A stretch of DNA of 64,000 bases from Rhodovarius crocodyli (GTDB taxonomy: Bacteria; Pseudomonadota; Alphaproteobacteria; Acetobacterales; Acetobacteraceae). The stretch is from assembly GCA_945901085.1 (NCBI GenBank), contig CAMDJV010000019.1:1-64000 (forward strand), in the 5' to 3' direction. Positions 4,840-63,909 of the stretch are shown in pieces; within the stretch, counting starts at the first letter, position 1, and each line of letters opens with the position of its first letter. A model generated the notes under the pieces. It made no database searches. It was not told the DNA's origin and worked only from the letters and a program-made list of their open reading frames with translations. The translations under genes and the position numbers were made by a program.

Positions 4840-4960
4840 ACCCCGGCAGTCCTGAAGGCGTTTGTCATATGCAAGACATATAGCAAGGCAGCCCCCAATG
4901 ACGAGGCCCGGCCCGACGCAATTCGCCAGAACGGCGCGATAGCGGGGGGGGGGAGATAAG

Positions 4961-5019
4961 ATCGATGGGCTTTGCCCCTCGAGCACCCCAGCAGGAAACT
5001 TAGTTTCCTGCACCTTCGT
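4961..5019. repeat. intergenic repeat module A, copy 1
   Basis: A 59-base unit matching 63777-63835 at 54 of 59 positions. It consists of two hairpins: TCGATGGGC-TTT-GCCCCTCGA, then GCAGGAAACT-TA-GTTTCCTGC, joined by GCACCCCA. Several of the differences between copies fall in the loops or at a paired position, so the fold is kept. The first hairpin alone also occurs at 10947-10967. Confidence 0.85.
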
Positions 5020-5163
5020 TACATTATTGGTTTTAGACCACAATTAATTCCATTGGAATTATTTCTAAAATAAAATATTCTAAAAAACATTAAGATTTAT
5101 GCAGTAAGCCAGTGCGAACGGAACAGTCTCAAAAAAATATCAAAGGTCCAGGAAAATCATTTT

Positions 5164-5221
5164 CCTGGTGGGAGAGCGCGAGAGGGCAAAGCCCTTTCGC
5201 TCTTTTTCTCCGCCACCAGCG
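5164..5221. repeat. intergenic repeat module B, copy 1
   Basis: A hairpin GCGAGAGGGC-AAA-GCCCTTTCGC followed by TCTTTTTC, framed by CTGGTGG (5165-5171) and its reverse complement CCACCAG (5213-5219). The first 47 bases match 63863-63909 at 42 positions. The same frame plus core is seen at the end of lpxB (49281-49359). The T tract is on the plus strand although both flanking genes are on the minus strand, so it is not simply the terminator of either. Confidence 0.8.
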
Positions 5222-5262
5222 TTTCCCCACAGCATTTTCAAGCCTTGCCGCTTCGCAATAGC

Positions 5263-63114: not shown

Positions 63115-63292
63115 AGGCAGGAGCGCTTCTTACGCCGCCACCTCGGTGGCGGCAAGCCGGGCTGGGGGTGATATTGCAGTTCGCGGCGTAAACACCGCCG
63201 ATTGCGCTTTGCGCGCGGCTTCACAGCGGGCAGATTGCACCATCAGCCAGGCTGGGCACGGGGCCCTTCGCGGAATCGGAGATCATGTCGTG

Positions 63293-63760
63293 ATGAAAAA
63301 ATCGACCATGCTGGGTTCTGGGCTCGGTTTAGGGCTCGCCCTCATCGCCTTCGCCACGGCCACCACGGCAGGTTTTGCCCAAGGCAGCGACCCGGCGCAG
63401 ATCATCCGCGAGCGGCGTGAGGGGCTCAAGGCCATGGGCGCACAGATGGAGGCGATGGCCGCCATCGCCCAGGCCCGCGGCGACACCCAGCCCGCCATCG
63501 CGCGAATCGAGACCCTGCAGAACTTCTTCGCCAATTTTGTTGAACGTTTCCCGGCCAATACCCAGGCGGGTGAAACCCGGGCCCTGCCGGCCGTCTTCAC
63601 CGATAGCGCCGGCTTCGCCACGGCGCTCACCAACCTCAATACCCAATTGAGCACCCTGCGCGCCGTGGCCGCGAGCGGCGATGCGGCCGGCTTTGCCCCC
63701 GCACTTCAGGCTACAGGCGCCACCTGCGGGGCCTGCCACAGGGCCTATCGCAGCCGCTGA
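63293..63760 (+). CDS. cytochrome c' (class II c-type cytochrome)
   Basis: 155 residues: signal peptide (MKKSTMLGSGLGLGLALIAFATATTAGFA) and a four-helix mature protein with a single CGACH haem site five residues from the C-terminus (ATCGACHRAYRSR), the mark of cytochrome c'. Such periplasmic haem proteins bind NO and may buffer nitrosative stress. GGAGA lies about ten bases before the ATG. Followed by composite repeat copy 2, whose hairpins probably end its transcript. Confidence 0.9.
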   Translation: MKKSTMLGSGLGLGLALIAFATATTAGFAQGSDPAQIIRERREGLKAMGAQMEAMAAIAQARGDTQPAIARIETLQNFFANFVERFPANTQAGETRALPAVFTDSAGFATALTNLNTQLSTLRAVAASGDAAGFAPALQATGATCGACHRAYRSR

Positions 63761-63776
63761 AAGACGGGAAGGAAAG

Positions 63777-63835
63777 ATCGAGGGGCCTTGCCCCTCGAGC
63801 ACCCCAGCAGGAAGCTCAGTTTCCTGCACGTTCGT
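63777..63835. repeat. intergenic repeat module A, copy 2
   Basis: Matches 4961-5019 at 54 of 59 positions, same orientation: TCGAGGGGC-CTT-GCCCCTCGA then GCAGGAAGCT-CA-GTTTCCTGC. Begins 16 bases after the cytochrome c' stop. Confidence 0.85.
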
Positions 63836-63862
63836 AGAATTATCGTGGACATATATGTCGAC

Positions 63863-63909
63863 CCTGGTGGGAGAGCGGGAGAGAGCAATGCCCTTTCGCT
63901 GTTTTTGTC
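63863..63909. repeat. intergenic repeat module B, copy 2
   Basis: Matches 5164-5210 at 42 of 47 positions, same orientation and same order after module A, though only 27 bases separate the modules here against 144 at copy 1. The GCGGGAGAGAGCAATGCCCTTTCGC stem plus GTTTTTG is a fair terminator for cytochrome c'. The right-hand frame CCACCAG of copy 1 is not evident here. Confidence 0.75.

Follow-up and report, generated by a model that had tools for sequence, protein, structure and literature searches.

Two copies of a composite intergenic repeat lie at the two ends of the window, by which we mean the whole 64,000-nucleotide stretch of DNA analyzed here; it belongs to contig C19 of a 3.85 Mb draft genome (91 contigs, 96.8% complete). 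A cytochrome c' gene lies at 63146-63760, and the second copy begins directly 3' of its TGA. A previous sequence-only reading had described each copy as a module A followed by a module B, and our recount gave exactly its figures: module A (4961-5019 and 63777-63835) is identical at 54 of 59 positions and the best 47-mer of module B (5164 and 63863) at 42 of 47, with the modules in the same order and spacers of 144 and 27 bases between them. For comparison, no non-homologous 59-mer in the window matched module A at more than 31 of 59 positions, and 30 shuffled modules reached at most 32. The AT-richness of the longer spacer and the lack of a transposase inside the element, both part of the same reading, were confirmed, and the element has no coding content.

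Each module is the inverted counterpart of the other, both being versions of a single two-hairpin unit (H1-linker-H2), with B matching the minus strand of A at ~80%, and the element as a whole is a nested palindrome, H1-linker-H2-spacer-H2'-linker'-H1', in the order A then B (Table 1). The unit starts with AAGATCG and ends with ACCTTCG, while the core, counted from AAG to the T tract, spans ~135-320 bases in the listed copies. Module B also holds a second hairpin in copy 1, where copy 2 has the palindrome GTGGACATATATGTCGAC instead. Folded as DNA, copy 1 was far more stable than its shuffles (z -8.0), and model R1 recovered its unit B on the minus strand at G000:C19:5141-5202 with 74.5 bits. 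The terminal inverted repeats (TIRs) of the window copies are at or near random similarity: identity to the consensus was 0.56 for the strongly degraded left zone of copy 1 and 0.61 and 0.63 for copy 2, compared to a 95th percentile of 0.64 for random flanks. The membership of these two copies in the TIR-bearing form of the family described below accordingly rests on the family core.

Table 1. Parts of the two repeat copies in the window.
Feature	Position	Strand	Composition or basis
Copy 1, left TIR zone (TAGCAGGCTGCTGAAAAACGAATAGCGAGGGAAAAC expected)	4922..4957	+	placed from its position in the alignment of the family
Copy 1, unit A	4958..5018	+	AAG, H1 (4962-4982), linker (4983-4990), H2 (4991-5011), tail ACCTTCG; 81 family copies at <=3 mismatches and covariation
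Copy 1, AT-rich spacer, tip of the nested palindrome	5019..5147	.	AT 0.73 (73%) in a window of 66% GC
Copy 1, unit B (inverted unit)	5148..5202	-	H2' (5148-5168), linker' (5169-5173), H1' (5174-5202)
Copy 1, terminator-like T tract behind H1'	5203..5207	+	family mean 4.95 T in 10 outward of H1'
Copy 1, right TIR, degraded	5208..5242	-	identity 0.71 to the consensus, exceeds random flank
Copy 2, unit A	63774..63834	+	H1 (63778-63798), linker, H2 (63807-63827), tail
Copy 2, "ins" cassette, palindrome GTGGACATATATGTCGAC replacing the left arm of H2'	63845..63862	.	left part of unit B deleted
Copy 2, rest of unit B	63863..63906	-	linker', H1' (63873-63901), T tract

Other repeats occur in and around the copies. 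A palindromic piece (GCAGTAAGCCAGTGCGAACGGAACAG; about AGAGCCTGTGCAGTGAGCCGAGGCGAACGGAACAGGCTCT) lies at 5101-5130, within the spacer of copy 1, and pieces of about AGAGCCTGTGCAGTGAGCCGAGGCGAACGGAACAGGCTCT are also found inside or beside elements L013, L039, L065, L075 and L095. Right behind copy 1, at 5232-5258, is the short repeat ATTTTCAAGCCTTGCGGCTTCGCAA, which recurs beside L073, L100, L101, L103 and L111, and another dispersed palindrome, about CATCCGTTCAAACGGAATCGTTTGAACGGATAAAGATGCTC, is present in the flanks of L020, L039, L065 and L070. Just past the end of the window, G000:C19 ~64040-64650 is 98% identical to contig C83 and in part 94% identical to contig C47; this stretch is another repeat near the contig end.

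Copies across the genome and their position relative to genes

Searching the whole genome with a 23-base core pattern for module A recovered 81 copies at <=3 mismatches, compared to none for the reversed control. Fifty-two of these had no mismatch, 21 had one, 7 had two and 1 had three; since most copies carry 0-1 mismatches, it is not likely that many moderately decayed cores escaped detection, with the caveat of ascertainment that the copies were collected by the core pattern itself. A search with the copy 1 sequence returned over 100 pieces. About 80 copies were examined with their flanks, the genome being covered by searches and by the stretches surrounding the matches. The similarity of the two window copies is thus shown to be no chance pair but part of a large structured repeat family. 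The sequence-only reading would have been refuted had the genome held only these two copies and relatives none, or had both been ordinary terminators belonging to no sequence family; the frequency of the unit in relatives and the recovery of 81 copies against 0 in the controls speak against both.

The family comprises single-hairpin forms (~95 bases with ends), forms with one central hairpin, standard forms and long-spacer forms, the last having AT-rich spacers of 90-160 bases; spacer AT ranges from 61 to 89%. Module B has been lost in a few copies, and two copies (L014 and L031) carry A-like units at both ends.

With genes called by codon usage, none of the 79 copies with two neighbouring genes was inside a gene: 43 lay between convergent genes, 34 between tandem genes and 2 between divergent genes. 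The background gaps, which come from one window with 45 gaps, were 7 convergent, 29 tandem and 9 divergent (Fisher p=2e-5 (convergent) and 0.002). By inspection of the list, the stop codon of a neighbouring gene falls within the transposon-end zone in ~40% of cases. The own copies also have the shape of an intrinsic terminator, in which transcription would pass a G+C-rich hairpin and then a run of T. Outward of H1', the family averages 4.95 T in 10 positions, and ~5 of 10 are T on both sides, compared to 2.1 of 10 in relatives. Judged by these features, the copies may act as bidirectional terminators, and selection for terminator function could act on the hairpins as well. They share with bidirectional rho-independent terminators the G+C-rich hairpins and, in this genome, the outward T tracts between converging genes, but differ from them in being a dispersed sequence family with TIRs whose units in relatives lack the T tract.

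Terminal inverted repeats and the link to IS5-family elements

Many copies are flanked outside the core by TAGCAGGCTGCTGAAAAACG and its inverse. Of 82 own copies, 37 have a TIR no more than 70 bp from the core, compared to 0 of 81 control flanks and 0 of 46 units from relatives; the left TIR is poor in more than half of the own copies. TIRs of the form TAGCAGGCTGCTGAAAA... stand at both ends of IS5-family transposase genes in five genomes (G036, G032, G050, G026 and G031). In G036, the exact 18-base end forms an inverted pair 1.5 kb apart that encloses an IS5-family transposase gene of ~370 codons, the product of which (P0001) matches Pfam DUF772 and DDE_Tnp_1 as well as NF033581 at 276 bits (cut-off 140), and the related transposases in the other four genomes have the same ends, with CTAG or CTAA at the junction. 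The same ends also bound miniature inverted-repeat transposable elements (MITEs) of 164-187 bases, with interiors unrelated in sequence, in G007, G008, G009, G012 and G013. The junction pattern c-TAG...CTA-g was seen in the MITEs and insertion sequences of relatives and in some own copies, most own ends having decayed, and the own genome also has short TIR elements with a single hairpin.

Because IS5 elements of relatives have matching ends, we read the element as an IS5-type MITE with a core of hairpins. Sequence identity shows the ends to be IS5-type, and it suggests that the element was transposed in trans in the past by an IS5-type DDE transposase. The proposal that the repeat is MITE-like and mobilized by an element elsewhere is supported by the many copies, by TIRs identical to those of IS5 elements and by an orthologous site lacking the element in three relatives: orthologues of the cytochrome c' gene next to copy 2 have no element past the stop codon in G004, G002 and G007, although these empty sites belong to other species of the genus, so that loss of the element there is possible too. 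Like known IS5-family MITEs, the element is short and gene-less, is dispersed in many intergenic copies with a probable CTAG/YTAR target, and has the same TIRs as full-length IS5-family elements of relatives. Unlike them, it has as its interior a nested palindrome made of an independent, family-wide two-hairpin unit, and its core is much better preserved than its ends.

No IS5 transposase matching P0001 was found in the 91-contig draft genome, from which DDE_Tnp_1_2 (PF13586) is also absent; an autonomous partner in the same genome is not essential to a MITE, and it may have disappeared or fall into a gap between contigs. Two DUF772 matches in this genome were rejected as the mobilizer; they are fragments of another group and lack this TIR. 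The MITE of G012 (L119, L120 and L121), which has IS5-type ends, has an interior unlike that of other MITEs with the same ends, consisting of two very A/T-rich hairpins, GTTCTTTTTTTCAAAAAAGAAC and CTTCTTTTTTATAAAAAAGAAG.

The probable target site bears on the position of the copies. CTAG occurs 11 times in the window compared to ~199 expected from base composition, an ~18-fold under-representation. Since this motif is so rare and contains the stop codon TAG, gene 3' ends, and those of converging genes in particular, would be natural landing places. However, 6 of the 11 window sites fall within genes and a single one touches a stop codon. Targeting therefore accounts for only part of the 3'-end bias, to which the purging of harmful insertions must contribute.

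The two-hairpin unit in other Acetobacteraceae

The covariance-model search that had been proposed for the genome and its relatives yielded matches to the unit at E<=1e-4 in 67 of 120 genomes of the family, often more than 40 per genome. Among 240 genomes drawn across the class, only 6 matched, the own genome included, and exact 24-base module matches in named genomes were confined to Acetobacteraceae (Roseococcus, Rubritepida and other members). In relatives, the units are single or in inverted pairs, mostly 2-20 bases past a stop codon. Because the unit is found without IS5 ends across the family, it is wider in distribution than the composite element and presumably older.

A description of the unit was sought in the open-licence literature (Azospirillum, Roseomonas, Rhodospirillales, alphaproteobacterial double hairpins, and IS5 MITEs with CTAG) and none was found, an absence that carries little weight. 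Rfam gave no real match at the gathering score, the window yielding only two tRNAs; plant miRNA-like matches far below the cut-off were set aside as chance. The element had no match in a plasmid collection. We tentatively suggest that the two-hairpin unit (H1, C-rich linker, H2) could be a distinct, undescribed class of Acetobacteraceae palindromic repeat, single or in inverted pairs, that is spread and homogenized at the DNA level (strict Watson-Crick covariation, exchange of cassettes among copies) without a RAYT (REP-associated tyrosine transposase) and hitch-hikes here in an IS5-type MITE.

Ten genes next to units in relatives were considered as mobilizers and rejected as ordinary (SecB, HisG, porphobilinogen deaminase and transporters). 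At L113 (1994-4216, Roseococcus), and also at L116, inverted unit pairs flank genes for a DUF3891 protein and a transporter permease in a peptide-transporter cluster.

Upkeep of the hairpins and competing explanations

The sequence-only reading had suggested that the hairpin structure is subject to selection or mobility, and covariation of the stems is indeed strong. Across 79 aligned units from relatives, 97.7% of stem pairs were standard, with 241 two-sided changes and 6 G-U pairs in 1103 cells, counts of paired cells that are inflated because this alignment was fitted to the model; pairing was far lower in shuffled and slid controls, and the unfitted alignment A1 still gave 62 two-sided changes compared to 20 in shuffles. 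RNA helices under selection normally change via G-U intermediates, and C-G to G-C flips have no route via G-U. Strict pair flips without G-U thus suggest that one arm of a palindrome served as the template for the other at the DNA level (arm-to-arm copying).

Among the own copies, identity was 0.95 in the core compared to 0.68 and 0.75 in the TIRs (random, 51%). Conservation rises sharply at the first core base, linkers and loops are no less conserved than stems, and core and TIR divergence showed no correlation copy by copy. Between A, B and the spacer, cassette variants show linkage equilibrium (Fisher p 0.5-1.0), while there is linkage between two positions of the same hairpin (p=0.005), a pattern that agrees better with short exchanges among copies than with a few masters being copied. 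Homogenization of the palindromes at the DNA level is likely, and we infer that gene conversion takes place between copies.

We consider it probable that an IS5-type MITE carrying an inverted pair of two-hairpin units has spread to ~80 sites. The outer layer would be a gene-less miniature transposon of the IS5 family, with TIRs of ~20 bases and a CTAG/YTAR target, mobilized in trans by an IS5-type DDE transposase not found in the present genome. The inner layer would be the inverted pair of H1-linker-H2 units, which elsewhere in the Acetobacteraceae occur behind stop codons without these ends; in this lineage, the pair would have become the cargo of the miniature transposon and so reached its ~80 sites. 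After insertion, the transposon ends would decay, while inter-copy exchange and arm-to-arm palindrome copying, and perhaps also selection as outward (bidirectional) terminators, would keep the hairpins uniform.

The hairpin core (AAGATCG...CGCTCTT) might instead be mobile itself through a mobilizer other than a RAYT, with the IS5-like ends as no more than a preferred landing place or hitch-hiker. The wide occurrence of the unit without IS5 ends, the conservation jump at the first core base, the uncorrelated core and TIR divergence, and the single units and inverted pairs, as in REP and BIME repeats, all favor such a course. We nonetheless regard it as doubtful, since no mobilizer came to light, whether as a Y1_Tnp in the genome or among the ten neighbour genes in relatives, and since TIRs beside the core are here far more frequent than in control flanks and also bound short elements with a single hairpin. 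That the copies are selected RNA elements (bidirectional terminators or 3'-end protection), a functional rather than a mobile family, appears unlikely. Such a role would agree with copies that never fall within a gene, lie at a 3' end almost without exception and are enriched between converging genes, with the outward T tracts (~5/10) in this genome and with a core kept while its flanks decay, but G-U pairs are almost absent despite the 241 two-sided stem changes, relatives lack the T tract (2.1/10), linkers and loops are conserved as much as stems, and CTAG targeting alone could favor gene ends.

The REP/BIME-like character proposed in the sequence-only reading held for the layout, namely intergenic palindromic units, single or in inverted pairs, at gene 3' ends, but not for the mobilizer. 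The RAYT search it had called for found no match to Y1_Tnp (PF01797) in the own 96.8% complete genome, with controls positive; no GTAG or CGTC tag was recognized by eye at the hairpin foot, and the ends match DDE-type IS5 elements rather than pointing to an IS200/IS605-like tyrosine transposase. Unlike REP/BIME repeats, this family also has two hairpins per unit and a conserved C-rich linker. Tagged REPs have been described, as have CGTC REPs without a dedicated transposase (PMC3733652). A REP/BIME family with its own RAYT is therefore very improbable. That unrelated, ordinary terminators should be alike by chance is hardly credible: a hairpin and T tract are present at both sites, but so are 54 of 59 identities, compared to 32 of 59 as the best by chance, and a family of 81 copies with 0 in controls.

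If the IS5-type MITE reading is right, one genome would hold three layers, namely a MITE steered to stop codons by its target, a cargo of hairpins at which transcripts arriving from either side may end, and a family-wide unit whose stems covary with hardly any G-U pairs. It would also offer a testable case for separating DNA-level upkeep of palindromes (template switching, gene conversion) from RNA-level selection, the two having long been confused for REP-like repeats.

By far the most variable base of the core is the central base of the H2 palindrome (core index 43; 5001 in copy 1), with 45% departures from the commonest base. The idea that this variation arises when the centre of the palindrome flips was dropped because no A was seen among the typed copies; T, C and G are all found at this position in unit A of the own genome.
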